From Thermoplasmatales archaeon SG8-52-3 (GTDB taxonomy: Archaea; Thermoplasmatota; E2; DHVEG-1): a stretch of 34,534 nucleotides of DNA. The DNA lies in contig LSSG01000070.1 in NCBI GenBank assembly GCA_001595915.1, positions 1-34,534 on the forward strand, given 5' to 3'. Made by a program: the position numbers and the translations under genes. The notes under the pieces are model-generated. The model was not told where the DNA came from. It saw nothing but the letters and a program-made list of their open reading frames with translations, and did no database searches. Numbering within the stretch: the first letter of the stretch is position 1; the number at the start of each line of letters is the position of its first letter. Below, one piece after another: positions 3,149-28,610 of the stretch.

Positions 3149-4294
3149 TCAAAAACATTCTTTTAGATAATTTTTTGAAAATCGTTCCGATAATAGATAT
3201 AAAAAATTAATTTTGTAACTTGGTTTATATCTTGGAATGGTCACCTCAAGAGTTGCCCAATTACTCTCATAACCATTGGAATCTCTTGCCTTTGCTTCAA
3301 TTGTGAATTTACCTGATTTTGTATATGTATGTTCAATTTCAAAATCTTCTCCTGATAAATGTGGACCATCCCAATTTTCAACATGTCCGTCTCCCCAAAG
3401 AATATAATAGTAAACATCGTCATTTTCTGGATCTATTGAATTGAATGTATAGTTATAGGCAGTATCAATAATTCCATTTGTTGGACCATCTATTATTGGT
3501 GCTTCTGGAGGATAATTTTCAAAGTACAGACCATCAATAGTTACTCGGATCGTAATTTTAGTTGCTTCCATTGCAACCTCAACTGGTAATGAATTTACAA
3601 CATGAATAAAACCTGATAATTGACAAGGATCTGAACTATCATTTTTATGAATTGATTGGTACCACATACCAAGATATGCCATATATTCACATAAAAAAGC
3701 ACCGGGATTACCATTCCAGTCAACCCACGCATTAATTGATATATTTTCATTTACTGCATCTTCAATTTTTTGTACTGGAAGTGTTGAATGACGAACGTGT
3801 CCTGTAGGTACAGTATCATCAGGTGGACATGGACTGGGTTGATATGGTGGATTATAGTCATTTACCCAACTATCAAGATTACGTGCATTATATTCGATTT
3901 CCCATGGCCCAGCACCTGCTCCAAAACTTATTATTGCGATTGGTTTTATTTGGGAAGTAATATCCCAAAAATCTGCCCAAGTATTCTGATAGTCTACTTC
4001 AAATGTACCATTATAACTACCTGGAGTGGGGAAAAATGAATAGATATCATAACCTCTACCTTCCCAGTTTTCACCTTCCCATCCATCAGGATTCAAATAA
4101 GGGTCAGTACTAAAAGGTGCTATCATTTGCCCTGTTGGATTCCAATAACCTGTTAGCATTATGTTTGGGAGATCATTTTCAATTAATGTATAATCATCAA
4201 TCTTTTTTTCTAAATAATGTCCCATAACAAATGTTGATAAAAATGTCATAATTAAAAGAAAAAATATTCCAACTGTAATTATCTTTTTAACCAT
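3149..4294 (-). CDS. Secreted pyroglutamyl-peptidase-like (C15 fold) protein with C-terminal PKD-like module
   Basis: The 381-residue protein begins with a signal peptide (about 1-25, MVKKIITVGIFFLLIMTFLS). Residues 43-250 read as a divergent pyrrolidone-carboxylate peptidase: MLTGYWNP (46-53) for the opening strand, SFGAGAGPWEIEYNARN (123-139) for the block holding the catalytic Glu, STLPVQKI (170-177), GNPGAFLCEYM (195-205) with Cys202 in the nucleophile position, and GFIHV (228-232) with His231 in the catalytic His position. Residues 262-353 are a PKD-like domain (WGDG at 300-303) ending in IPR, followed by a short hydrophobic tail (KINFLYLLSERF). The family removes N-terminal pyroglutamate from peptides and is normally cytoplasmic, so a secreted, anchored form is unusual. 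The fold and catalytic positions are read from the sequence; the substrate is inference. A TATA-like TTTAAATA and a GGGGGT ribosome site precede the start. Confidence 0.75.
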   Translation of the reverse strand: MVKKIITVGIFFLLIMTFLSTFVMGHYLEKKIDDYTLIENDLPNIMLTGYWNPTGQMIAPFSTDPYLNPDGWEGENWEGRGYDIYSFFPTPGSYNGTFEVDYQNTWADFWDITSQIKPIAIISFGAGAGPWEIEYNARNLDSWVNDYNPPYQPSPCPPDDTVPTGHVRHSTLPVQKIEDAVNENISINAWVDWNGNPGAFLCEYMAYLGMWYQSIHKNDSSDPCQLSGFIHVVNSLPVEVAMEATKITIRVTIDGLYFENYPPEAPIIDGPTNGIIDTAYNYTFNSIDPENDDVYYYILWGDGHVENWDGPHLSGEDFEIEHTYTKSGKFTIEAKARDSNGYESNWATLEVTIPRYKPSYKINFLYLLSERFSKNYLKECF

Positions 4295-4358
4295 TATAGT
4301 TTACCCCCTAAAGTATTATAAAAATATGAATATAGGTATTTAAATTCTTTTAAGGAAA

Positions 4359-5408
4359 TTATAAATCAAATGGCTTTAATGCTGGACGCCAATCAAATCT
4401 TGGAATCCAGGGAAAATGATGTTCTATAGCAGTTGGGGGTATTCCTTGTAATCTGCATATAAAAAGTTCTCCAGATATAGATTTTGGAAGTAACCTTGTT
4501 TCATTCCAATAATTTCTCCACCATATATTTCTCCTTGAGTTTTGACAAAAGGCGTCTTGAAAATTTTCAATGAAGTTATTTTTTTTAATTTTGTTATGAG
4601 TTGATCCATCAACAAGAATATTGAAGGCAAAAGTTGGATAAATTGTACCTCCAAGAAATATTCCAAAGTCATTGTGTGAAATCAAATTTAATTCTATAAA
4701 ATTATTTCTGGATTTGCTGTATAGCTTAATTCCATATTCATTGTTAATAATTTCATTAGTTGTAATTAAATTTTTACTGGAAGTTTGTAAAAATAATCCA
4801 TTGAAATTGTTATCAATTTTATTTGCATTAATAATATTATTGTTCGAGTTACTACTAATTATCGTACCATTATCATTATTTGTAATATAATTTATTTCGA
4901 TTAGATTATTACTAGAATCTATAAGAGATATGCCATACCTCTTATTAGATTCAATTATATTGTTAAATATATGGCAATCTTCACTATTCAAAAGTTTTAA
5001 CCCTGAAAGATTACCGTTAATAATACGAAAACCTGAAATAATAACATTACTTGAATTAACAGTAATTGTGCATTGTTTAAGTTCACCGTCTATTGTGGTA
5101 GTTATTGGATCCTCCCCATAAATAAGGATTGATTTATCTACATAGATATTTTCAAAATATGGTGATGAATCATCAAAAACAAATACAGTATCACCATTTG
5201 ATGCATTATCAATTGCATCTTGTATATTTGTATAATTACCTGGTCCACTTCCGCCTACATATAGGACTATATCTAGGGAATTTATTGGATTTTGAGGATA
5301 ATTATCGATATTTTCAATTATTTCTCCATTAGATGATATGACCCCTGTTAAAAGAATTATAATAATAAATGCTAAAACAAGTACTTTTCTTATTAAACTA
5401 TTCTTCAT
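4359..5408 (-). CDS. Secreted NosD-type parallel beta-helix protein
   Basis: The 349-residue protein has a signal peptide (about 1-25) and then the standard opening of archaeal NosD/CASH beta-helix proteins (LYVGGSGPGNYTNIQDAID at 49-67, then NGDTVFVFDDSSPY). From about 95 to 295 it is built of 22-24-residue Asn/Ile-rich rungs (repeated N-I-I-x-x-N-x-x-G-I patterns). Such right-handed beta helices are typical of extracellular polysaccharide-binding or -cleaving proteins, but no catalytic residues can be identified here. It ends with a distinct C-terminal segment (NYWNETRLLPKSISG, then a Trp/Pro-rich end) instead of the PKD-like module of its neighbours. The beta-helix protein at 27474-28610 has the same type of ending and a near-identical VFDDSSPY region, so the two are recent paralogues. 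The upstream promoter carries the shared 14-base element. Confidence 0.85.
   Translation of the reverse strand: MKNSLIRKVLVLAFIIIILLTGVISSNGEIIENIDNYPQNPINSLDIVLYVGGSGPGNYTNIQDAIDNASNGDTVFVFDDSSPYFENIYVDKSILIYGEDPITTTIDGELKQCTITVNSSNVIISGFRIINGNLSGLKLLNSEDCHIFNNIIESNKRYGISLIDSSNNLIEINYITNNDNGTIISSNSNNNIINANKIDNNFNGLFLQTSSKNLITTNEIINNEYGIKLYSKSRNNFIELNLISHNDFGIFLGGTIYPTFAFNILVDGSTHNKIKKNNFIENFQDAFCQNSRRNIWWRNYWNETRLLPKSISGELFICRLQGIPPTAIEHHFPWIPRFDWRPALKPFDL
5157..5199. repeat. Near-identical 43-base segment, copy 1 (paralogous beta-helix genes)
   Basis: This segment, which encodes TVFVFDDSSPY on the minus strand, matches 28365-28407 at 42 of 43 bases, with a single A/G difference. The two genes are 23 kb apart. 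The identity is far above that of the surrounding rungs, which points to recent duplication or gene conversion. Confidence 0.85.
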
Positions 5409-5460
5409 ATCTTTCCTCCCCTTATAGATATTTTATTGGAATTATAATAAAATATGCTAA

Positions 5461-5474
5461 TTTAAATATTTCCT
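5461..5474 (-). promoter_or_regulatory. Shared 14-base BRE/TATA promoter element, copy 1
   Basis: On the minus strand this reads AGGAAATATTTAAA, which resembles a purine-rich BRE followed by a TATA box. It lies 53 bases upstream of the beta-helix gene start at 5408. The identical 14-mer occurs at the same kind of position ahead of the genes starting at 7912 and 10786. Confidence 0.65.
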
Positions 5475-5518
5475 ATAAAAAAATAAAAAAAGAAAAAGGG
5501 GAGTTTATAGTTTTTTTT

Positions 5519-7912
5519 TTAAATTGTTCTTGGTAATTTTACAACTGTTTCATGACTATTAGTTGTTACTTGATATTTCTGTATTCCGTCTTTGTTTCTT
5601 GGAATATTTATCACTTGTTCACTCCAACCACTCTCTAGACCTGTAATATCCTTAGCTTTTGCTCTTACTGTATAGTCTCCTTTCTCTGTCCATGTATGGC
5701 TTTTTGTTTGCCAGGTTCCTGATGGAAATGGTCCGAACCAATCTTCAGATGTTCCATCTCCCCAATCCACATAATAATATACGTTATGACCGTCTCCATC
5801 TATTGATTTAAATTGAAATTCAATAGGTGTATCTGTTCCTCCACTGGACGGACCATTTATTTGTGGATTTTCTGGTGCTGTTCCAATAACAATATCAAAT
5901 GTTTTTGTTTCAGAAACATTTTCATTTCCACTTGTATCCTTTGCAAGTATGTAGAAAGAATAAGTTCCTTCTGGGATATATGTCTGATTTAAGTAGTAAG
6001 TGTCACCAATTTTGTTATCAATTATCGGGTATATTTCTTCACTTGAATCTGGGAATTCGACATGAAGATTTACTTCAGATAGTTCGATATTGTCAATAAC
6101 TACAGCAGAAATATTTACGTAATGACCTGCCATTTGTACTTCTGGATCAACTTTTAGATTTGTAATCTCAGAAAGGTCATTATCTATAATTGTAACATTT
6201 TTGAGGTTACAACAATATCCATTTCCATAAGTGTCTTGTGCATATATTGAATAGTAAATAATTTCAAGGACATGCTCAACTATTATACTTCCCTCCCAAT
6301 AATCTCCTTCTGTATTTACTAAATCAACATTGAGGTTTGGTCCATCATCATATTTGTAATTAACATTTACAAAATCAACCTCAACATTATCTGTAACAGT
6401 TGCATTGAAAGTAAAAATATCACCTGTTGTAGCTGTATCAGGAGTATTGTCTATTACTTCTGGTGGCGTACTGTCGACAAGAACAGATTTAATGGTTGAA
6501 TCAGTTTTACCATCATCATCAGTTACATCTAGTGTAACATCATAATCTCCATCCTCAGTATATGTATGGTCAACATTTAGACCATTTCCAGTGTTACCAT
6601 CTCCAAAGTCCCATTCATATGTAATAATTGTTCCATCATAATCATATGATCTTGATCCATCGAAAGAAACATTTTTTTCATCAACTGAATACTTAAAGTC
6701 TGCTTTTGGAGGGCCATAAGGAGTCATTAAAGGATATTCATCCTGGTTACTATCACCGGGTATGTCATAGGGACTATCTCCAATACCATCCCAGTTATTA
6801 TCATCACCTGTATAATCATCCCAGTAATTTCCCTGTTCAAGTATTGAACTATACCATGTATTTGTCCCATCATCTATTCCATTTTGTGTATTGTCATAAA
6901 TATTATTGTTATAGATTTCATTGTTATTTGAAGAATCGCAATTTATGCCATATATATCATTATCATGTATGTTATTTTCATAAATAGTATTTGAATTCGA
7001 TAGTTCAATGAATATGCCCTGATTATAGTTTGAATCTACATCATTTCCAAAAATTTCATTATTGTGTGAATAAAAGCAAACAAAACCCCCATCTTCGGTA
7101 GGGCCGCCATTATTGTTAACAATGTTATCTGAAACAGTGTTACCATCTGATTGATATAGTCTTATTCCTACTTCTTCATTTGAAGAAACAGTATTACCAA
7201 TAATTTCATTATAATCACACTGATTATTTAAATATACACCTATTCCAGAGTTTAACTCAATTGTATTGCTGATAATTTCACAATATTTTGAAGAAAGACA
7301 CAAAATACCATTGTCTTTATTATTTTTTATGTCATTTGTTGAAATAGTTGTATAATCTGACATATACACATATATACCTTGATTATTATCAGTAAAAATA
7401 TTATCTATAATCTCTGTATAATCAGAGGATTCAACAAAAACACCTCTATCAATGTTATCATCAAATATCGTGTTGTATATTGAACAATGATCAGAATTCA
7501 CTCTTATTCCACCAGAATTACTTCCACCATTTTCAATAGTAAACTCACTAATATTACACCATGCAGAAGTTATTTTTACTGCATTATCTGATTCATCCAA
7601 GCCATGTATTATTGTTGTATCTTTATTCTCACCAGTTAAATCAACTGTTTTATCAACAATCACATTTTCGATATATGTACCTGAGTAAACATATACCATA
7701 TCTCCAGTGGTTGCATTATTTATTCCCTCTTGAATTGTTTTAACATGTGTTGCATCGTACCAGCCAGGATCGGCATCATCATCAACATATATTGTTCCTC
7801 TATCATTTATTGGTTCAAAGATATATTTTCCTAAAATTTGTCCTGTTATAGGTACGGCCGCAGAAGTAATCAATAGCGTACAAATTAATATTCCAACTAT
7901 TTTCTTTTTCAT
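5519..7912 (-). CDS. Large secreted beta-helix protein with PKD and Ig-like domains and C-terminal IPRN module
   Basis: This is a 797-residue extracellular protein. Domain order: signal peptide (about 1-24); NosD-like parallel beta helix (about 40-350, rungs rich in N, I, S and G, starting IYVDDDADPG); the linker NYWDDYTGDDNN...GDSPYDIP typical of archaeal NosD proteins (362-386); a clear PKD domain (403-480, YEWDFGDGNTG then HTYTEDGDYDVTLDVTDDDG); two Ig-like/bacterial-surface domains (about 483-575 and 580-675); and a second, variant PKD-like domain (680-772, WGDGTSEDWFGPFPSG) ending INIPRNK, followed by a 25-residue tail. Unlike its relatives, the tail here is polar rather than aromatic. 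PKD and Ig-like modules usually act as spacers or adhesion modules. A GGGGG plus GGAG ribosome region precedes the ATG, and the shared 14-base promoter element lies 61 bases upstream. Function is probably cell-surface or secreted polymer binding; no catalytic site is identifiable. Confidence 0.85.
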   Translation of the reverse strand: MKKKIVGILICTLLITSAAVPITGQILGKYIFEPINDRGTIYVDDDADPGWYDATHVKTIQEGINNATTGDMVYVYSGTYIENVIVDKTVDLTGENKDTTIIHGLDESDNAVKITSAWCNISEFTIENGGSNSGGIRVNSDHCSIYNTIFDDNIDRGVFVESSDYTEIIDNIFTDNNQGIYVYMSDYTTISTNDIKNNKDNGILCLSSKYCEIISNTIELNSGIGVYLNNQCDYNEIIGNTVSSNEEVGIRLYQSDGNTVSDNIVNNNGGPTEDGGFVCFYSHNNEIFGNDVDSNYNQGIFIELSNSNTIYENNIHDNDIYGINCDSSNNNEIYNNNIYDNTQNGIDDGTNTWYSSILEQGNYWDDYTGDDNNWDGIGDSPYDIPGDSNQDEYPLMTPYGPPKADFKYSVDEKNVSFDGSRSYDYDGTIITYEWDFGDGNTGNGLNVDHTYTEDGDYDVTLDVTDDDGKTDSTIKSVLVDSTPPEVIDNTPDTATTGDIFTFNATVTDNVEVDFVNVNYKYDDGPNLNVDLVNTEGDYWEGSIIVEHVLEIIYYSIYAQDTYGNGYCCNLKNVTIIDNDLSEITNLKVDPEVQMAGHYVNISAVVIDNIELSEVNLHVEFPDSSEEIYPIIDNKIGDTYYLNQTYIPEGTYSFYILAKDTSGNENVSETKTFDIVIGTAPENPQINGPSSGGTDTPIEFQFKSIDGDGHNVYYYVDWGDGTSEDWFGPFPSGTWQTKSHTWTEKGDYTVRAKAKDITGLESGWSEQVINIPRNKDGIQKYQVTTNSHETVVKLPRTI

Positions 7913-7972
7913 ATTATCTCCTATTCCCCCTTTTAATTTAGAATATTATAATTATGTAATATAATAATTTAA

Positions 7973-7986
7973 TTTAAATATTTCCT
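7973..7986 (-). promoter_or_regulatory. Shared 14-base BRE/TATA promoter element, copy 2
   Basis: This is identical on the minus strand (AGGAAATATTTAAA) to the copies at 5461-5474 and 10841-10854. It lies 61 bases upstream of the start of the 797-residue beta-helix protein. Confidence 0.65.
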
Positions 7987-8013
7987 TAACGATAGTTAAT
8001 TTTATTTAAAAAT

Positions 8014-9102
8014 TTATTTTTGGATTACAAATGAATCAAAAATTGTACCATTTAGTTTTATTGCATTAAAAGATAATTGATCATTATTGCAACTAATTAA
8101 ACAATAATGAAATGTTTTTTCAGAATGAACAGTCCACCATTTATTTCCTGTATCATAAGGTGGTGCACCACCTCCTCCTGTAACAATATAATTAACACTT
8201 TTCACTTTTCCACGTTCATAACAATGATCGTGACCATTAAAAACTATATCAACATTGAAATATTCAAAGAATAGACCCCAAATAAATCTTAAATAAATTG
8301 TAGAACCATGATTTCCGGAGCTATATGGTGGATGATGAAAAAATATTATAGTAAATGGCTGATTATTTGATTTCAAATCCTTTAAAAGCCAAGATAATTG
8401 TGATAATTTTATTGAATTTCTAAAATTTGAATCTAAGCTTATAAAATGAACAGAACCATAATCAAAGGAATACCAAGGTTCATTATTTCTTAATAAAAAA
8501 TATTTAAAATATGCTTCGCCGTATTGTTCATGATTACCTAAAGCAGGGTATAAAGTACTGTTATGTATGAAAGTTGATATTGAAAAGAAATCAATCCATT
8601 GGTCAATATAAATACCATTTTTTACAAAATCTCCAGTATGTAAAACAAAATATGGGTGTTCTATTTCAATTTTATCTGCAACTATACTTGCATTTACCCA
8701 GTTGTCCCAAACACCTCTTGAATCACCATATATTACGAATCTAGTAGAGCTATTTTCCTCGAATTTTGTATAAAAAGAATAAATGCTACTTTCAATGTGA
8801 TCAGAAACTACCTTATAAAAATATTTTGTTGATGAAATAAGTCCATTTAATTCAACAGTATGAAAATTACCTGAAATGTTATTATATTTTTTTTGTTCAC
8901 AATCTTGTGTTAGCCCATAATGAACACTGTTATTTGTAGTAGATATATTTGTCTCCCATATAATTGTTATAGAATCAAATTCAGGATTTTGAGGGTAAGG
9001 ACCAATAATAATTTGAGAATTTTTTTCATCTAATCCATTAACTGAAATTGTAGAGTTAATAAAAAAAATTGTAAGAATTATTAAAATTATTAAATTTTTC
9101 AT
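8014..9102 (-). CDS. Secreted purple-acid-phosphatase-like metallophosphoesterase
   Basis: The 362-residue protein has a signal peptide (about 1-23), an N-terminal fibronectin-III-like domain of the purple acid phosphatase type (about 30-115, with ITIIWET and the STKYFYKV strand), and a calcineurin-like phosphoesterase domain (about 120-320). The metal-binding motifs are all present: GDSRG (Asp127), HTGDF (Asp158), GNHE (Asn190/His191), FFHHPPYSSG (His256 or His257) and NGHDHCYER (His291/His293). It should hydrolyse phosphate esters or anhydrides outside the cell, using a two-metal site. The typical C-terminal block GGGGAPPY is also present. It lies between two beta-helix genes in the same orientation but lacks the PKD-like/IPRN ending and the 14-base promoter element of its neighbours. 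Substrate cannot be read; phosphate scavenging is a reasonable inference. Confidence 0.87.
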   Translation of the reverse strand: MKNLIILIILTIFFINSTISVNGLDEKNSQIIIGPYPQNPEFDSITIIWETNISTTNNSVHYGLTQDCEQKKYNNISGNFHTVELNGLISSTKYFYKVVSDHIESSIYSFYTKFEENSSTRFVIYGDSRGVWDNWVNASIVADKIEIEHPYFVLHTGDFVKNGIYIDQWIDFFSISTFIHNSTLYPALGNHEQYGEAYFKYFLLRNNEPWYSFDYGSVHFISLDSNFRNSIKLSQLSWLLKDLKSNNQPFTIIFFHHPPYSSGNHGSTIYLRFIWGLFFEYFNVDIVFNGHDHCYERGKVKSVNYIVTGGGGAPPYDTGNKWWTVHSEKTFHYCLISCNNDQLSFNAIKLNGTIFDSFVIQK

Positions 9103-9201
9103 AAGCTTTTTAACTCCTAATCTATCATAACGTAATTTAATATATAAATGTTTTATATAAAATATAAAAAAATTTTCAATTTCTTGTTTATTAATAAAAA
9201 C

Positions 9202-9348
9202 TTACCATCTTCTACTTGATTTTACAATTCTTTTAATATTTGTAGATTTACAAAACCGGCATTTTCCACAATCATTATTGCCTGTGAAAACCCAGCTGAA
9301 ACTTCTATCACAAGAATTGCATTGATACCAAAAAATCAATTTTTTCAT
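9202..9348 (-). CDS. Small zinc-ribbon protein (48 aa)
   Basis: This gene is below the size limit of the ORF track. It reads MKKLIFWYQCNSCDRSF and continues with NNDCGKCRFCKS, then ends in a basic tail (KRIVKSSRRW). Two Cys pairs (C10/C13 and C30/C33, with an extra C27) form a zinc-ribbon pattern reminiscent of FmdB-type or other small archaeal zinc ribbons. GAGGG lies directly against the ATG, which is close for a ribosome site. The 110-base upstream interval is pure AT-rich spacer. It sits alone between the phosphoesterase and the next beta-helix gene. The regular Cys spacing makes it more than a chance ORF. Function unknown; nucleic-acid or protein binding would be usual for such ribbons. 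Confidence 0.6.
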   Translation of the reverse strand: MKKLIFWYQCNSCDRSFSWVFTGNNDCGKCRFCKSTNIKRIVKSSRRW

Positions 9349-9427
9349 CCCTCTATTTTGCAATTTTGAATCTATTTATAGTTTATAATGTTATTTATAA
9401 AATAAAAAAATTTATTGAATTTTATCT

Positions 9428-10786
9428 TTAGATATTAAAAAAGTATCTAATAAATGAAAATTTATCAATAAATTTCTCAAACAAATTCATGAAAATTTGA
9501 GGAGTATTTCTATTTCTAGGCATTGTTATTCTAAAGGGATCTGACCAATTTGTTTCAAAACCTCTTGTATCTTTTGCTTTTACCCTTATATCGTATATAC
9601 CTGTACTCCAAGTATGAGATTCTGATGCATCAGTGCCTGAAATATATGGTCCAAACCATTCTGAATATGAATCGTCGCCCCAATCAAATTTATAGTATAT
9701 TGGATCTCCATCAGGATCTTTTGCAGATGTTGTATAATAATATTCCTGTCCTGCATTTCCATAGGTTTGACCAGTGAGAGATAAATCAATAGGTGCTTCA
9801 TTATACCAGCTATCTTGATCAATTAAAGGATAATAATCTCTACCTTGTTTAAATGGAATTTCATATGGGCTATCGCCAAATCTATCATGGCCCGGTAAAT
9901 CTTGATTTATTCCATGATAATCATCATTTCCTGTATACTCAGACCAGTAATTACCGCCTGAAGGATATTCATCGCTCCAGCTATTACCGCCACCTTCATC
10001 CTTTGCATTTTCAAGGTTATGGATGAAGCTATTGTGATAGATGTTGTTATTTGATGCATTTATATATAAACCATCATCATTGTTTGATCGAATAATATTT
10101 TTGATAATATTGTTGTTATTACTTGGATAAAAGATACTCATACCATTATTATCATTGAAACTGATTGTATTTTCTGATATAGTATTATGACTTGAACTTT
10201 TTATTATCATACCATTATCAATGTTTGACGTAATAAAATTATTAGTAACGATATTATTGTTTGCAGAATCAATCCACAAACCATCAAGTCCATTTGTATC
10301 AATTATGTTGTCTGATACAAAGTTATACTCACAGTTATTAATCCATAAACCTATTTCAGCATTATTTGAAACAATATTACCTGAGACATTATTGTAATCT
10401 GAATTTATATGAATTCCTCCGTTATAACAAATGCTTCCACTATTTTGTATAGTAAATCCACAAAAAGTTACCTGATTACTTGATATATAAACAACATCTC
10501 CATTACCTCCACCATCAATTATTGTAGAGTTCTTGTCTTCCCCAATCAAATCTATATTGTTTTTATAAATTACTACATTTTCAATATAAATTCCATTATA
10601 AACGAAAATCATATCACCTTGATTTGCAACATCTATTGCACTTTGGATAGTTGTATAGTTACCAGGACCTCCTCCTCCTACATATAATATATTTCTACTT
10701 ATTTTTAAGGTTTGAACAGTTAAAACACTATTCAAAGAGGTAAGTATCATTATTGATATTAAAAATATTATTAATCTTTTTTTCAA
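9428..10786 (-). CDS. Secreted beta-helix protein with C-terminal PKD-like/IPRN-type module
   Basis: I place the start at the internal TTG (10786), giving MKKRLIIFLISIMILTSLNS, a clean signal peptide, with GGGGGT seven bases upstream. The ORF-track start (TTG at 10819) would translate through that ribosome site. The 452-residue product contains the NosD opening (ILYVGGGGPGNYTTIQSAID), a long Asn-rich beta helix (about 60-275), the NYWSEYTGNDD...GDSPYEIP linker, and a PKD-like domain (about 322-420, WGDDSYSEWFGPYISG) that ends ITMPRNR. The tail after PRNR (FMNLFEKFIDKFSFIRYFF) is strongly aromatic/amphipathic. The WGDG motif is WGDD here. The upstream region has the shared 14-base promoter element and is divergent from an Lrp-type regulator. 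The role is probably extracellular polymer binding or processing; no catalytic residues are assignable. Confidence 0.83.
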   Translation of the reverse strand: MKKRLIIFLISIMILTSLNSVLTVQTLKISRNILYVGGGGPGNYTTIQSAIDVANQGDMIFVYNGIYIENVVIYKNNIDLIGEDKNSTIIDGGGNGDVVYISSNQVTFCGFTIQNSGSICYNGGIHINSDYNNVSGNIVSNNAEIGLWINNCEYNFVSDNIIDTNGLDGLWIDSANNNIVTNNFITSNIDNGMIIKSSSHNTISENTISFNDNNGMSIFYPSNNNNIIKNIIRSNNDDGLYINASNNNIYHNSFIHNLENAKDEGGGNSWSDEYPSGGNYWSEYTGNDDYHGINQDLPGHDRFGDSPYEIPFKQGRDYYPLIDQDSWYNEAPIDLSLTGQTYGNAGQEYYYTTSAKDPDGDPIYYKFDWGDDSYSEWFGPYISGTDASESHTWSTGIYDIRVKAKDTRGFETNWSDPFRITMPRNRNTPQIFMNLFEKFIDKFSFIRYFFNI

Positions 10787-10840
10787 TTTAAGTAACCCCC
10801 ATTCAAGATATTGTTGCAAAATCCTAATAAAATATTTAGA

Positions 10841-10854
10841 TTTAAATATTTCCT
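10841..10854 (-). promoter_or_regulatory. Shared 14-base BRE/TATA promoter element, copy 3
   Basis: This third identical copy (AGGAAATATTTAAA on the minus strand) lies 55 bases upstream of the TTG start at 10786. The consistent 53-61 base spacing in three genes fits an archaeal promoter with a 25-35 base leader that holds the ribosome site. The spacing also supports the TTG start chosen for this gene. Confidence 0.65.
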
Positions 10855-11025
10855 CATAGTATATATTTTATAATTTATTAAAAATTAGTTGTAATTTTTA
10901 AAAAATAACAAAACAATAATATTCTATTTAAAAAAAATACTATTTGCAATATCTTTAATAGGTTAAATGTATTTAATATTAAAATTACACTAGTAGTAAT
11001 TTACAAATTGGAGTTGAATAATTAG

Positions 11026-11553
11026 ATGGATGACTATGATAATTTTCAAAAGTCAAATATTGAAGAAAAAATTTTAAATGAACTGAAAAATAATTGTAGA
11101 TTAAATCTTGATGAAATTGGTAAAAAATGTGGTTGTTCAAGGTATAAGGTTGGAAGATTTATAAAAAAATTAGAGGAGAATAAGACAATCCTAGGTTATT
11201 CAGCAATAGTTAACCCCAATAAAACTAATGAAAAACATTTTATTCTCCTTATAAAAAGAACAACTTTACCATTGGATGAGGAAATCCTAAAAAAACTACC
11301 TCTTTTTAGTGGTTCAGATCTAGTACCTAATATTAGGATTAATCTTGATGATACTTTTTATGTTCATGGTGAATTTGATTGGGTGGTAACTTTTACAGCA
11401 GATGATATCTCATTTGCAAAAGATTTTTGTAATAAAATTTTAAAATATTATAATAAATTTATTGAAAGATTAGAACTTTTGGAAACAATAGGTCCTATAA
11501 GAAAAAATGGATTTAGAATAAAGCAATCTGAAAAAATTACAAAGATATTGTAG
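11026..11553 (+). CDS. Lrp/AsnC-type transcriptional regulator
   Basis: The 175-residue protein starts with a winged helix-turn-helix of the Lrp/AsnC type (about 12-62: EEKILNELKNNCRLNLDEIG, then CGCSRYKVGRFIKKLEENKTILGYSAIVNP). The remaining part (about 63-155) has the length and strand/helix alternation of a RAM-like ligand domain but is divergent (FYVHGEFDWVVTFTADD). DNA binding is well supported; the ligand is unknown. GGAG lies 12 bases before the ATG. It is divergent from the beta-helix gene at 10786, so the shared 240-base intergenic region is the natural place to look for an operator, and the secreted-protein genes are its most obvious candidate targets. That link is inference only. 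Confidence 0.8.
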   Translation: MDDYDNFQKSNIEEKILNELKNNCRLNLDEIGKKCGCSRYKVGRFIKKLEENKTILGYSAIVNPNKTNEKHFILLIKRTTLPLDEEILKKLPLFSGSDLVPNIRINLDDTFYVHGEFDWVVTFTADDISFAKDFCNKILKYYNKFIERLELLETIGPIRKNGFRIKQSEKITKIL

Positions 11554-11699
11554 AAATATTTTTTTTAAAAGACATTTTTTAAAAAAATATTAAATTTGCG
11601 CATTATTTAAATTTAAACAAATTTTTTTTAATTTTTGTTTAATTAATTACACCAATTATGAAAAATTATATATAATACGAATTCATTCATTAATATCAA

Positions 11700-11768
11700 G
11701 GGAGACTAGGAAATAATAAACTCATCATATATTCGCATATTAAGTCTAAAAAGGGTAGTAAGTCTTCC
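11700..11768. other. Stem-loop candidate
   Basis: GGGAGACT (11700-11707) can pair with AGTCTTCC (11761-11768) over eight base pairs, including one G-U pair when read as plus-strand RNA, closing a 53-base loop. The stem overlaps the 3' half of the small minus-strand ORF 11706-11816. It could be part of an RNA element or chance in AT-rich DNA. Confidence is low without comparative data. Confidence 0.3.
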
Positions 11769-11816
11769 TAATGGGGGTATTAGAGATTGCAAAGTAGGAA
11801 TTTTAATTTTTTTCAT
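11706..11816 (-). CDS. Possible small protein (36 aa) with strong ribosome site
   Basis: On the minus strand GCAGGAGGAAAGG stands directly before an ATG, with AGGAGG spaced five bases from the start, which is as good a ribosome site as any in the window. The ORF reads MKKIKIPTLQSLIPPLGRL and ends IYDEFIIS. It is basic at the N-terminus and has no recognisable domain. A TATA-like stretch (TATATAGATTTATA) lies about 20-40 bases upstream. The peptide is too short for coding statistics. The strong start signal is the main evidence. It could instead be a leader peptide or part of a structured RNA. Confidence 0.4.
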   Translation of the reverse strand: MKKIKIPTLQSLIPPLGRLTTLFRLNMRIYDEFIIS

Positions 11817-12045
11817 CCTTTCCTCCTGCTATTAGTATAAATCTATATAACTATACAAATAATACTTTAAGTCTCTATACTCCCCTTTTACATAAAAATA
11901 ATAATTAATTCATTGTTTGAATGTGAATATTTTTATTTAATGTAAATTTTAAATATTAGAAAATTTATTACATTCTAGTTTTAGGGCAGGAGGAATACTT
12001 AAAGTAATTGGATTAACTAGTTACTTTTAGTATTTATCATATAAG

Positions 12046-12162
12046 GTGATAGATATCGTTGCGGTATGTAGGATATCAAAAGATGGAAAATTACTTGCAA
12101 TAAAAGAAGTTTCTGATTTATATAGATATTTCCCATATGAATGGGATGAACTATATGGTTGA
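12046..12162 (+). CDS. Possible small protein or gene remnant (38 aa)
   Basis: A GTG-started frame reads MIDIVAVCRISKDGKLLAIK and continues EVSDLYRYFPYEWDELYG before a TGA. The residue mix (aromatic-acidic C-terminus, alternating strand pattern at the N-terminus) looks more protein-like than the surrounding AT-rich DNA, and local GC is higher. There is no good ribosome site ahead of the GTG. It may be a small gene, or the surviving end of a longer one, since the frame closes only 15 bases upstream. I do not recognise the family. Confidence 0.35.
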   Translation: MIDIVAVCRISKDGKLLAIKEVSDLYRYFPYEWDELYG

Positions 12163-12323
12163 GCTTTCGATAGTTAATATTCTTTAATTTAAGTTAATAT
12201 TTTATAAATAAAATATTTTTCTCAAATAAGTTTAATAAAAAAATAATCCTTAAAATTATGTTATAGATAGATTTAAATAAAAATAATATATTACAAATTA
12301 ATATAAGTAGGGGAGGAACATAT

Positions 12324-14846
12324 ATGAAAAAAATTATAGCTAAAAAAATTCTTATTCTAGGAATTATTTTGTTGTTTTTAACAGCAGGTTTTATACCAAA
12401 TATTAGCAGTGTTAAAAATGTCTATGAACAAAATTTTGAGATTTTAAACGCTGATTCATTTTATCCATTTGAAGAAGGATGGTTCTATCAAAAACAAATT
12501 ACAATCAATCATGAGATGGTTAATGGAGATTTTACGTATTTCCCAGTACTTATTCACATTATTGATTCTGATCTAAGTGTTAAGGCTCAAAATGATGGTG
12601 ATGATATTATATTTATGGATAATTTAGGATATGCAAATAAGTTGTCTCATGAAATAGAGTTTTTTGATGATTCTTCTGGTGAACTTATTTGTTGGATAAA
12701 TGTTAGTAGTGTATCTATCAGTGAAGATACTATTTTTTATATGTATTATGGTAATCCAATTTGTGAAAATCAAGAAGAGATTACTGATACATGGGATTCT
12801 AATTATGTGTTAGTTCAGCATCTTGATGAAATTAGTGGTGTTCATTATGATTCTTCTGTTTATGGTAATGATGGTACTTGTTTAAATGGAACTGATCAAA
12901 ATGCAGAAGGTTTTATTGATGGTGCTGATGCTTTTGATGGAACAAATGATTGGATAAATTGTGGTAATAATGAATGTTTCAATCTTACTGAAGAAATGAC
13001 TCTTGAGGCTTGGGTGAATCGTTCTGGTGATGGTACTGGAAAATATTTAGGAATAGTTGGTCGAGCCAAAGATACTTCAGGACCAGGTTACAATCGATAT
13101 CAATTAAGGTATAAGCATGAAGATGATGTTGTCCACTTTTTCTTAGGAAATGATACTAATTATACAATAGTATGTTCTGATAATGATCTGGCTCTAGGTG
13201 TATGGACTCATTTGGTAGTAACCTGGGATGGAACAAACATGTACATGTTTGTTGATGGAATACAACAGTCTGAAGTTGGTTTATTTACTAGTTTCCCAGA
13301 TACTACTTCAGCAGATCTTGAAATAGGACGATATTTTACAATTAATTATTTTGCAGGTTTAATTGATGAAGTGAGGGTTTCAAATATTTATAGGGATCCA
13401 AATTGGATTACAACTGAATATAATAATCAAAATAATCCTTCAAGCTTTTACACAGTCGGAACTGAGAATTCATATTTACAAGATTGGCAATATAGAAAAA
13501 AGATAACAATTAACCCTGATTTGGTTGAAGAAGATCTAGAAAACTTCCCAATCTTAATTAAAACAGTTGATAGTGATCTTGCAAGTAAAGCCCAAGATGA
13601 TGGTGATGATATTTTATTTACAGATGGTTCAGTATATGCAAATAAATTATCCCATGAGATAGAATTTTTTGATGGATCTTCTGGTGAATTAATTTGTTGG
13701 GTAAAAGTAGAAAGTGTATCTAGTGTTGAGGATACAATTATCTATATGTATTACGGTAATCCAGGTTGCATCAGTCAAGAAAATCCTAATAGTGTATGGG
13801 ATAATGGCTTTGTAATGGTCCAGCATCTTGATGAAACTAGTGGTACTCATTATGATTCTACTGTTTATGGTAACGATGGAACTTGTGTTAATGGAACTGA
13901 TCAAAATGCAGAAGGTTTTATTGATGGAGCTGATGGCTTTGATGGAACAGATGACTGGATTTATTCTGGAAATGATGACAGTTTAGATATAACTGATGAG
14001 ATGACTCTTGAAGCTTGGGTGAATCGCTCTGGTGATGGATTAGGTAGATTCTTAGGAATAATTACTCGTAGAGGCAGTGGTTATAATAGGTATCAAATTA
14101 GATATGCTCCCGATGATGATGTTGCACAGTTCTTCCTTGGTGATAGCTCTAGTTATACAATTCTAAATTCTGATAATGATTTAAGTTTAGATGAATGGGC
14201 TCATCTAGCGGCAACATGGGATGGTACAAACATGAAAATGTTTGTAAATGGAATAGAACAAACAAACATTAGTTCTTTTACAAGTTCTCCAAATACTCAT
14301 TCAGCCGACCTTGAAATAGGACGATATACTGAGCAGAACTATTTCCAGGGTTTAATTGATGAAGTTAGAATATCAAATATCAATAGAGGCTCTAGTTGGA
14401 TTATAACAGAATTTAATAATCAAAATGATCCAAATAATTTCGTTGATATTGGACCTGAAGAAGGCGGAGAAAATCTTCCACCATCTGCTCCAGAAATTGA
14501 TGGTCCTACTCAAGGAAGGGTTGGTGAAACCTATTTATACTCGTTTATGTCAATTGATCCTGAAGGTAGTAATGTTTATTATAGAGTAGTTTGGGGTGAT
14601 GGTGAGGAGAATGACTGGTTTGGTCCTTATGAATCAGGTAAAGTTGTATCTGTAACTAAAACATGGATGAGTATGGGTCGTTTCACAATGTATGCATACG
14701 CAAAAGATACTGAAGAATTAGAAAGTGATTATTCAACTTTGGTAGTAAATATCCCAAGAAATAGAGTTGCAAAAATTACTTTTCTCCAATGGTTTATTGA
14801 GGAATTTCCTTTATTAAGTAGAATATTATTAGATATTTTAAAATAA
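12324..14846 (+). CDS. Secreted protein with tandem DUF2341-LamG units and C-terminal PKD-like/IPRN module
   Basis: The 840-residue protein has an N-terminal signal segment (about 1-25). It contains two copies of a 320-330-residue unit (about 54-380 and 388-710). Each unit is a DUF2341 domain (YQKQITIN...GELICWINV...YMYYGNP, and YRKKITIN...GELICWVKV...YMYYGNP) followed by a concanavalin-A-like LamG domain (VQHLDE..., MTLEAWVNRSGDG, FAGLIDEVRVSNI / FQGLIDEVRISNI). After these comes a PKD-like module (718-810, VVWGDGEENDWFGPYESG) ending VNIPRNR, then a tail FLQWFIEEFPLLSRILL. LamG domains usually bind glycans or other polymers, so a surface binding role is likely; no enzyme domain is visible. 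TATA-like TTTAAATA and GGGGAGGA precede the ATG. It converges with a second DUF2341/LamG gene of the same family. Confidence 0.85.
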   Translation: MKKIIAKKILILGIILLFLTAGFIPNISSVKNVYEQNFEILNADSFYPFEEGWFYQKQITINHEMVNGDFTYFPVLIHIIDSDLSVKAQNDGDDIIFMDNLGYANKLSHEIEFFDDSSGELICWINVSSVSISEDTIFYMYYGNPICENQEEITDTWDSNYVLVQHLDEISGVHYDSSVYGNDGTCLNGTDQNAEGFIDGADAFDGTNDWINCGNNECFNLTEEMTLEAWVNRSGDGTGKYLGIVGRAKDTSGPGYNRYQLRYKHEDDVVHFFLGNDTNYTIVCSDNDLALGVWTHLVVTWDGTNMYMFVDGIQQSEVGLFTSFPDTTSADLEIGRYFTINYFAGLIDEVRVSNIYRDPNWITTEYNNQNNPSSFYTVGTENSYLQDWQYRKKITINPDLVEEDLENFPILIKTVDSDLASKAQDDGDDILFTDGSVYANKLSHEIEFFDGSSGELICWVKVESVSSVEDTIIYMYYGNPGCISQENPNSVWDNGFVMVQHLDETSGTHYDSTVYGNDGTCVNGTDQNAEGFIDGADGFDGTDDWIYSGNDDSLDITDEMTLEAWVNRSGDGLGRFLGIITRRGSGYNRYQIRYAPDDDVAQFFLGDSSSYTILNSDNDLSLDEWAHLAATWDGTNMKMFVNGIEQTNISSFTSSPNTHSADLEIGRYTEQNYFQGLIDEVRISNINRGSSWIITEFNNQNDPNNFVDIGPEEGGENLPPSAPEIDGPTQGRVGETYLYSFMSIDPEGSNVYYRVVWGDGEENDWFGPYESGKVVSVTKTWMSMGRFTMYAYAKDTEELESDYSTLVVNIPRNRVAKITFLQWFIEEFPLLSRILLDILK
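12483..13463 (+). repeat. Tandem intragenic duplication, unit 1
   Basis: This is the first DUF2341-LamG unit of the 840-residue protein. It aligns with 13485-14453. A stretch within the LamG start is identical over 38 bases in both units (around 12886-12930 and 13888-13930), so the duplication is recent or is kept homogeneous by recombination. Confidence 0.8.
13485..14453 (+). repeat. Tandem intragenic duplication, unit 2
   Basis: This is the second DUF2341-LamG unit, slightly shorter than unit 1. It is highly similar in the DUF2341 core and the first half of LamG and more diverged after the GYNRYQ block. Confidence 0.8.
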
Positions 14847-27473: not shown

Positions 27474-28610
27474 TTATATGTTATATGGTTCTTCCTGTGG
27501 ATTCATATCATAGGCTCGAAATGAAACACCTCTTATGCTTTTTGGAAACATCTTAAAGAATGGGATATCAAATTTTAATCCTATCCAGTCGTCCCAATAG
27601 TTTGAATCCCAAGTGTTACGAAAAGATGCAACATATCTGGCATTTCTACGGTTTCCTATAAAATTGTTCATCTCAATTATGTTTTCGTTACTAAACATAA
27701 AATATAAACCTTCTATAGTATTATCTTTGAAATTATTACTGCTTATAATATTCTTACCACCATTAGATACCTTCATACCTGCGTTATTACCTGTTACATT
27801 GTTTCCGGTTATTTCATTAGTTGTTGTTAGTACCCCTTCAATTAATATTCCTTCTCTTTCATTATTAATTACATTATTTCCAGAAATTGTATTCTGACTG
27901 CTGCTTCCAGCAAGTTGTATACCTCCAAAGTTATTTTCAACTGTGTTATCAAGGATATCATTTTGTTTACTGACAGCCTCAAGTGATATTCCAAAATCTC
28001 CATTTTCTGTAATTGTATTTCCAGATATAATATTACGATCAGATTCTTGTAATAAAATTCCCTCAAACTCGTTATTTGATATTATATTGTCAATAATTGT
28101 TATTTTAGTACTAGTTGCTTGAAGATAAATGCCATAGGAACTATCTTCTACTTTATTATTTGAAATTATGCAATCTTCCATAAGTGGATAAACTAATATT
28201 CCATCTTGTCCATCAGCAGTTCCACTTATTGTAAAACCACTTATTTCAGCATTTTTTGCAGAAATCCGGACTGCATGATCCTGTCCACTAATACCATTAA
28301 TAACAGTTGTGTCTTTATTTTCACCAATAACACTTATTTGCTTGTTTATTCGAATATTTTCTTGATATGGTGATGAATCATCAAAAACAAATACGGTATC
28401 ACCATTTATTGCGTCATCTATTGCCTCTTGAATAGTTGAATAATTACCACTTCCATTTCCACCAACATATAATACATTTCCAAGAGGATTACCTAAAACA
28501 CCTATATTTTTCTTTACTGGAACTCCGCTACTCATTGGTATAATGCAAAGACCAATAAATAGAAATGCTATGGTAAAAACCAAACTCATTCTAATTTTTT
28601 TATTTTCCAT
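27474..28610 (-). CDS. Secreted NosD-type parallel beta-helix protein (paralogue of 4359-5408)
   Basis: The 378-residue protein has a signal peptide (about 1-29) and the NosD opening (VLYVGGNGSGNYSTIQEAID), then NGDTVFVFDDSSPYQENI. A beta helix of about ten rungs follows (about 95-315). It ends NYWDDWIGLKFDIPFFKMFPKSIRG with a short tail. The C-terminal NYW...PKSI.G pattern matches the protein at 4359-5408 and lacks the PKD-like/IPRN module. Asn-rich repeats (NNEF.GILL, NNFGGIQLAG) dominate. Polymer binding outside the cell is probable; catalytic residues cannot be assigned. It sits between two PAS-rich genes, head to head with the large kinase. Confidence 0.84.
   Translation of the reverse strand: MENKKIRMSLVFTIAFLFIGLCIIPMSSGVPVKKNIGVLGNPLGNVLYVGGNGSGNYSTIQEAIDDAINGDTVFVFDDSSPYQENIRINKQISVIGENKDTTVINGISGQDHAVRISAKNAEISGFTISGTADGQDGILVYPLMEDCIISNNKVEDSSYGIYLQATSTKITIIDNIISNNEFEGILLQESDRNIISGNTITENGDFGISLEAVSKQNDILDNTVENNFGGIQLAGSSSQNTISGNNVINNEREGILIEGVLTTTNEITGNNVTGNNAGMKVSNGGKNIISSNNFKDNTIEGLYFMFSNENIIEMNNFIGNRRNARYVASFRNTWDSNYWDDWIGLKFDIPFFKMFPKSIRGVSFRAYDMNPQEEPYNI
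28365..28407. repeat. Near-identical 43-base segment, copy 2 (paralogous beta-helix genes)
   Basis: This is the counterpart of 5157-5199, with one mismatch. It encodes TVFVFDDSSPY on the minus strand. Confidence 0.85.

Follow-up and report, generated by a model that had tools for sequence, protein, structure and literature searches.

Several C-terminal elements are known to tie exported proteins to a cell or to direct them to its surface. In Escherichia coli, a C-terminal amphipathic helix of around 18 residues anchors the enzyme PBP5 (DacA) on the outside of the cytoplasmic membrane (PMC2909392). The AmyA enzyme of Sulfolobus solfataricus carries a bipartite C-terminal motif; when this motif is truncated, the enzyme escapes into the medium and the cells grow more slowly on starch (PMC5023256). 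Archaeosortase signals (PGF-CTERM, Loki-CTERM and Heimdall-CTERM) are portable C-terminal signals found on many surface proteins, and cargo of the type IX secretion system (T9SS) shares a C-terminal domain (TIGR04183) that is common to unrelated peptidases, including C25 and PAD. Here we analyse a 34,534-nucleotide stretch (the window) from Thermoplasmatales archaeon SG8-52-3, an uncultured sediment archaeon of the Marine Benthic Group D (MBG-D) type with a 1.9-Mb assembly (84 contigs, 79% complete), and four of its proteins, referred to by their first coordinates as 3149, 5519, 9428 and 12324. Three of the four end in a short tail that is apparently an undescribed, genome-wide C-terminal tag; we judge it somewhat likelier than its alternatives taken together that the tail acts independently of archaeosortase as a portable tag for retention at the surface, in the manner of the amphipathic anchor of PBP5.

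A common C-terminal module in the window

The original prediction had placed a PKD-like module of roughly 90 residues, with a fixed order of motifs, at the ends of four open reading frames (ORFs) and a hydrophobic tail behind it in three of them. All four ORFs were found where predicted, and alignment of their last 120 or so residues (21 invariant columns, 34–46% identity to the first row) upheld the module, its motif order and the three tails. The secreted 3149 protein (3149..4294, minus strand; 381 aa) contains a marginal Peptidase_C15-like region (E 2e-4, just under the Pfam cut-off), a C-terminal PKD stalk identified by module alignment and profile match (aa 259–353; 3236..3520, minus strand) and a weaker copy of the tail, PRYKPSYKINFLYLLSERFSKNYLKECF (aa 354–381; 3152..3235, minus strand; tail model E 6.8e-4). 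The 9428 protein, a secreted NosD/beta-helix protein of 463 aa (9428..10819, minus strand), has its PKD stalk at aa 339–433 (9521..9805, minus strand) and its tail, PRNRNTPQIFMNLFEKFIDKFSFIRYFFNI, at aa 434–463 (9431..9520, minus strand). On the plus strand, the secreted 12324 protein (12324..14846; 840 aa), with two DUF2341 and two Laminin_G_3 regions, carries a PKD stalk at aa 716–810 (14469..14753) and the tail PRNRVAKITFLQWFIEEFPLLSRILLDILK at aa 811–840 (14754..14843; tail model E 1.1e-12), modelled as two helices flanking FP. The exception is the secreted 5519 protein (5519..7912, minus strand; 797 aa), which has NosD/beta-helix, PKD and Ig-like regions and a C-terminal PKD stalk (aa 676–770; 5603..5887, minus strand) followed by PRNK and a polar, non-canonical stretch, DGIQKYQVTTNSHETVVKLPRTI, without an amphipathic tail (5522..5602, minus strand). 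The interfacial energy of this end was −2.0 kcal/mol, compared with −9 to −12 kcal/mol in the other three proteins, and no displaced tail was found in other frames nearby.

The tail, not the PKD domain, is the portable unit

The part of the module of around 90 residues is an ordinary PKD domain (PF00801/PF18911), as judged by profile and beta-sandwich fold. Pfam PKD matches exceeded the cut-off in the 3149, 5519 and 9428 proteins and were weak in the 12324 protein (E 0.0095), the PKD copy of which was modelled by AlphaFold with a predicted local distance difference test score (pLDDT) of about 97 and matched PDB 4xed with a root-mean-square deviation of 0.7 over 97 columns (profile E 7.8e-42). 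4xed is the PKD domain of an M14-like peptidase from the MBG-D archaeon Thermoplasmatales archaeon SCGC AB-540-F20, and its crystallized chain stops at MPK, exactly where the tail starts. The tail itself lies outside the PKD family and found no credible match in Pfam or, for 37 tails compared, in NCBIfam; nor was it described in the literature searched, a search mostly of papers available without subscription.

A profile of the module gave 128 matches in the SG8-52-3 genome (best E 2.5e-60). The fetched stretches yielded 107 distinct PKD-module ORFs, 104 with a defined C-terminus, and in 86 of these 104 the PR motif lay 20–43 residues before the stop. A model of the tail only (34 positions; consensus IPRxR-x(8-10)-LLxRLFERFPNxFPILRxLLGL) matched 72 times in the same genome at E ≤ 1e-3. 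Exported tail carriers thus number about 80–95 in this genome, usually with a PKD domain before the tail, an estimated 5% or so of a proteome whose gene total was itself estimated from genome size. The window observation is real, far beyond chance and much larger than first noted. Two tail subtypes occur in this genome, ERFPN(x)FPILR(x)LLG and ERFPMLERLLxLL.

Position was no criterion in assembling 213 distinct tail ORFs, many of them on loci fetched via tail or PKD matches. In 199 of these ORFs the tail match ended no more than 3 residues before the C-terminus, in 12 it ended 4–10 residues before it and in 2 it ended 11–27 residues before it. A PKD match was present in 186 and absent from 27, in which the tail followed an Ig-like domain (its model resembles ASH/PapD-like domains), a beta-helix directly, FG-GAP-like repeats or other sequences. 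Conversely, PKD copies also occur in tandem, internally and on tail-less proteins, and around 16 PKD ORFs of the SG8-52-3 genome have other ends (a KGGLFxVxAxIxNIG domain, Hint-like sequences or transmembrane (TM) C-termini). The C-terminus-bound portable unit is therefore the tail. The earlier statement that the module always stands at the extreme C-terminus survives for the tail and fails for PKD, and the notion that the PKD module is the signal was rejected on three counts: PKD without tail, tail without PKD, and a solved structure that ends where the tail begins. The same facts bear on a reading in which the tail is a mere cap that completes or stabilizes the PKD domain of an ordinary expanded family. 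PKD does directly precede the tail in most carriers (186/213), but the 4xed domain folds without a tail in the crystal, PKD copies exist without one, and tail proteins in which unrelated domains take the place of PKD largely refute the cap, which we regard as very improbable.

Carriage by unrelated signal-peptide proteins, also proposed from the window, was borne out. A simple heuristic rule (not SignalP) recognized signal-peptide-like N-termini in 137 of 155 carriers and in 128 of 357 other ORFs, and the cargo of 77 carriers comprised peptidases of families M14, M28, S8, C1, C10, C25 and S15, LamG, beta-helix and propeller domains, and PAD-like and arylsulfotransferase-like proteins.

Tail chemistry favours membrane retention

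The hydrophobic moment of the tails peaked at 100–110 degrees (z about 27–28 versus shuffles). Mean hydrophobicity was 0.76–0.79 and the moment 0.46–0.48, compared with 0.46 and 0.33 for other C-termini, and the median interfacial transfer energy was −11.4 versus −5.7 kcal/mol. The Kyte–Doolittle (KD) measure KD19 exceeded 1.6 in only 2 of 84 tails, and basic residues stand before the hydrophobic part. Two short helices around FP were predicted in both stalk contexts, PKD and Ig-like (tail pLDDT 54–84). Modelling and composition together point to a pair of strongly amphipathic helices in the tail, with a predicted affinity for the membrane interface.

We propose that carriers would be exported via the N-terminal signal peptide and that a beta-sandwich stalk, usually PKD and sometimes an ASH/PapD-like Ig domain, would space the enzyme or binding domain away. 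The final 28 or so residues, which open with a basic PRx[R/K] and continue as the putative amphipathic helix pair kinked at FP, would rest in the outer surface of the cytoplasmic membrane and so keep the protein on the cell. Of the export, surface-attachment or docking roles offered by the original prediction, we infer from the physical chemistry of the tail that surface attachment is to be favoured over scaffold docking or export. In families f3, f9 and f10, PKD is followed by amphipathic tails of unrelated sequence, which is what conservation of membrane affinity would predict.

Some observations weigh against simple interfacial binding. On the octanol scale, full insertion was marginally favourable for 91% of the SG8-52-3 tails, which may thus adopt a short transmembrane, shallow or re-entrant state; confidence in the predicted helices was moderate; and the motif is more specific within the family than lipid binding needs, which suggests a protein partner. 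Docking through the tails, which would bind each other or a scaffold and so assemble extracellular enzyme complexes with a purpose like that of dockerin and cohesin, would suit cargo consisting mostly of degradative enzymes and binding domains, and amphipathic hydrophobic helices can form bundles. However, the mean hydrophobicity of the tails is probably high for soluble bundles, and the fetched loci, which cover a small share of the genomes, showed no recurring receptor domain; we consider docking quite unlikely.

Conservation and the case for a dedicated reader

Codon agreement at identical residues of paired tails was 0.454, against 0.473 expected from codon usage. Agreement is at chance level and synonymous sites are therefore saturated, which shows that conservation applies to the peptide rather than to the DNA; on this saturation we reject a conserved DNA element or recent copying. 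The regex anchor used in the codon test imposes an acidic or Gln residue at the third position before P, and statements on conservation use the unforced profile instead. Position 5 is R or K in 100% of the SG8-52-3 tails and position 7 in 91%. Among relatives, whose set was partly ascertained by a pattern in the central stretch, specificity can be read without bias only at P26 (91%), L28 (93%), R29 (82%) and the PK/PR start, which lie outside that pattern. Tail identity between close orthologues (more than 60% overall identity) was 0.59–0.93, and one pair had 0.93 in the tail and 0.51 in the passenger; between diverged homologues the tail drifts strongly, with identity down to 0.14.

These patterns cut both ways for the main rival to direct membrane retention, a dedicated envelope protein that reads PRx[R/K] ... 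ERFPNxFPILR. Such a protein might be a receptor, or a protease cutting near PRxR, and would attach or release cargo by a logic like that of T9SS or archaeosortase. High residue-specific conservation inside one family and the separateness of the tail from archaeosortase are consistent with it, and the basic residues at positions 5 and 7 could form a cleavage motif. Yet relatives keep amphipathicity rather than sequence, the tail drifts between diverged homologues, the T9SS C-terminal domain was not detected in the SG8-52-3 genome, and no co-localized candidate gene recurs near carriers: clustering of carrier neighbours in the fetched loci, a limited portion of the genomes, brought up nothing recurrent beyond cargo families and housekeeping or regulator genes, and no machinery candidate. 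We hold a dedicated reader to be doubtful. The same tentative standing applies to its broadest form, a further archaeal sorting system in which an MBG-D-family envelope protein would recognize PRx[R/K]-...-ERFPNxFPILRxLL and anchor or process the tailed part of the proteome in parallel to archaeosortase, with the stalk interchangeable.

Relation to known C-terminal systems

Surface retention by the tail would most resemble the PBP5 arrangement, in which an exported enzyme has a beta-sheet stalk module and then a C-terminal amphipathic helix; in the tail carriers, likewise exported proteins with a beta-rich stalk, the models end in a predicted C-terminal amphipathic helix of around 18 residues. 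In contrast to the PBP5 anchor, which has been described on PBP5 and its close relatives, the tail is spread over many unrelated proteins within a single genome, starts with a PRx[R/K] motif and has an FP kink. The PBP5 C-terminal family was absent among tail matches and among the 25 families listed for carriers, and the relation we draw is one of working alike, not of homology or membership. AmyA also has an archaeal C-terminal motif of a kind found on several secreted proteins, but there an 18-residue hydrophobic stretch precedes charged residues, whereas the tail is basic first and then an amphipathic helix.

Archaeosortase signals are similarly portable but depend on a TM helix with a basic end. 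Neither their signature nor a KD-type TM helix is present in the tail, and none of the 37 tails compared with NCBIfam matched a CTERM model, in keeping with the difference from archaeosortase-type C-termini claimed earlier. Of the 52 genomes in the order, 44 contained archaeosortase TIGR04178, among them genomes without tail matches; the archaeosortase was not detected in two metagenome-assembled genomes (MAGs), themselves incomplete, with 91 (G041) and 7 (G030) tail matches. On this phyletic pattern we reject archaeosortase as the partner of the tail. The SG8-52-3 genome has both the tail and an archaeosortase-type signal, the latter on a protein above the cut-offs of the Heimdall-CTERM and Loki-CTERM models (L057:964-1632, plus strand). 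The T9SS domain, although also common to unrelated peptidases, is an Ig-like domain of around 70–80 residues and needs an outer membrane; TIGR04183 had no match in the SG8-52-3 genome or in two same-genus relatives, and a reading of the carriers as T9SS cargo was rejected. The claim that the element is not covered by known archaeal sorting systems thus stands for sequence families, whereas its mode of action would resemble known C-terminal amphipathic anchors.

Distribution of the tail in archaea

A class-wide tail search (E ≤ 1e-3) found matches in most genomes of the family to which the archaeon belongs, with as many as 97 in one genome, and hardly any outside that family; family members without matches had shorter or divergent tails. 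A search of the phylum (390 genomes) added two marginal matches in other genomes (2e-5 and 5e-5). A GTDB-wide pattern scan returned 68 loci in Thermoplasmatales or Thermoplasmatota MAGs, with a few labelled only Euryarchaeota or uncultured archaeon and one, at a contig edge, in a Parcubacteria MAG. SM1-50, which has been described as MBG-D/Thermoprofundales (PMC6461988), was among them. No viral contig carried the tail. These sequence searches indicate that the ERFPN form of the tail is confined to one archaeal family. The Parcubacteria contig (RS_3_30; L147:2-91) opens with an MBG-D-type tail, and its neighbouring genes have no match in MBG-D loci; it is likely to be a chimeric or misassembled contig end.

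Other C-terminal arrangements

A second shared C-terminal domain of around 100 aa (KGGLFxVxAxIxNIGxxEAxNVxWxIxLxGG...) replaces the tail on several PKD-module proteins, in the SG8-52-3 genome at L037:1467-2951, L073:1198-3816, L064:12766-14796, L062:141-1496, L033, L039 and L076:11885-14302 and in another genome (G004) at L231; it is perhaps an alternative anchoring or capping domain. Two PKD-module proteins (L016:1057-3297, minus strand, and L079:1-2547, plus strand) have a Hint-like (intein/hedgehog-type) end with a final VGGY(D/N). In the window, two NosD beta-helix proteins without the tail (4359-5408 and 27474-28610, both minus strand) have another C-terminal pattern in common, LPKSI.G.. 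or FPKSI.G.., with a short end containing PA or NP and a final PF or PY. C25 (gingipain-like) peptidases are frequent with and without the tail (L125:1141-3135, L073:1198-3816) and show weak similarity, far under the cut-off, to the T9SS sortase PorU. Tail genes are concentrated in arrays of adjacent secreted-protein genes, in the SG8-52-3 genome (G000) on contigs C53 (73–121 kb), C62 (5–39 kb) and C82 (9–31 kb).

Implications for MBG-D archaea

MBG-D archaea (Thermoprofundales) occur widely in marine sediment and are believed to break down detrital protein by means of extracellular peptidases, the genes of which are among the highly expressed ones (PMC6461988). Who benefits from the products depends on whether such enzymes remain cell-bound or are lost by diffusion, and a tag on dozens of these enzymes that predicts retention makes that question testable. 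The tail would add a way of displaying proteins at the surface that departs from the archaeosortase pattern, and it may help to recognize, from sequence, the cell-bound part of the exoproteome in uncultured archaea.

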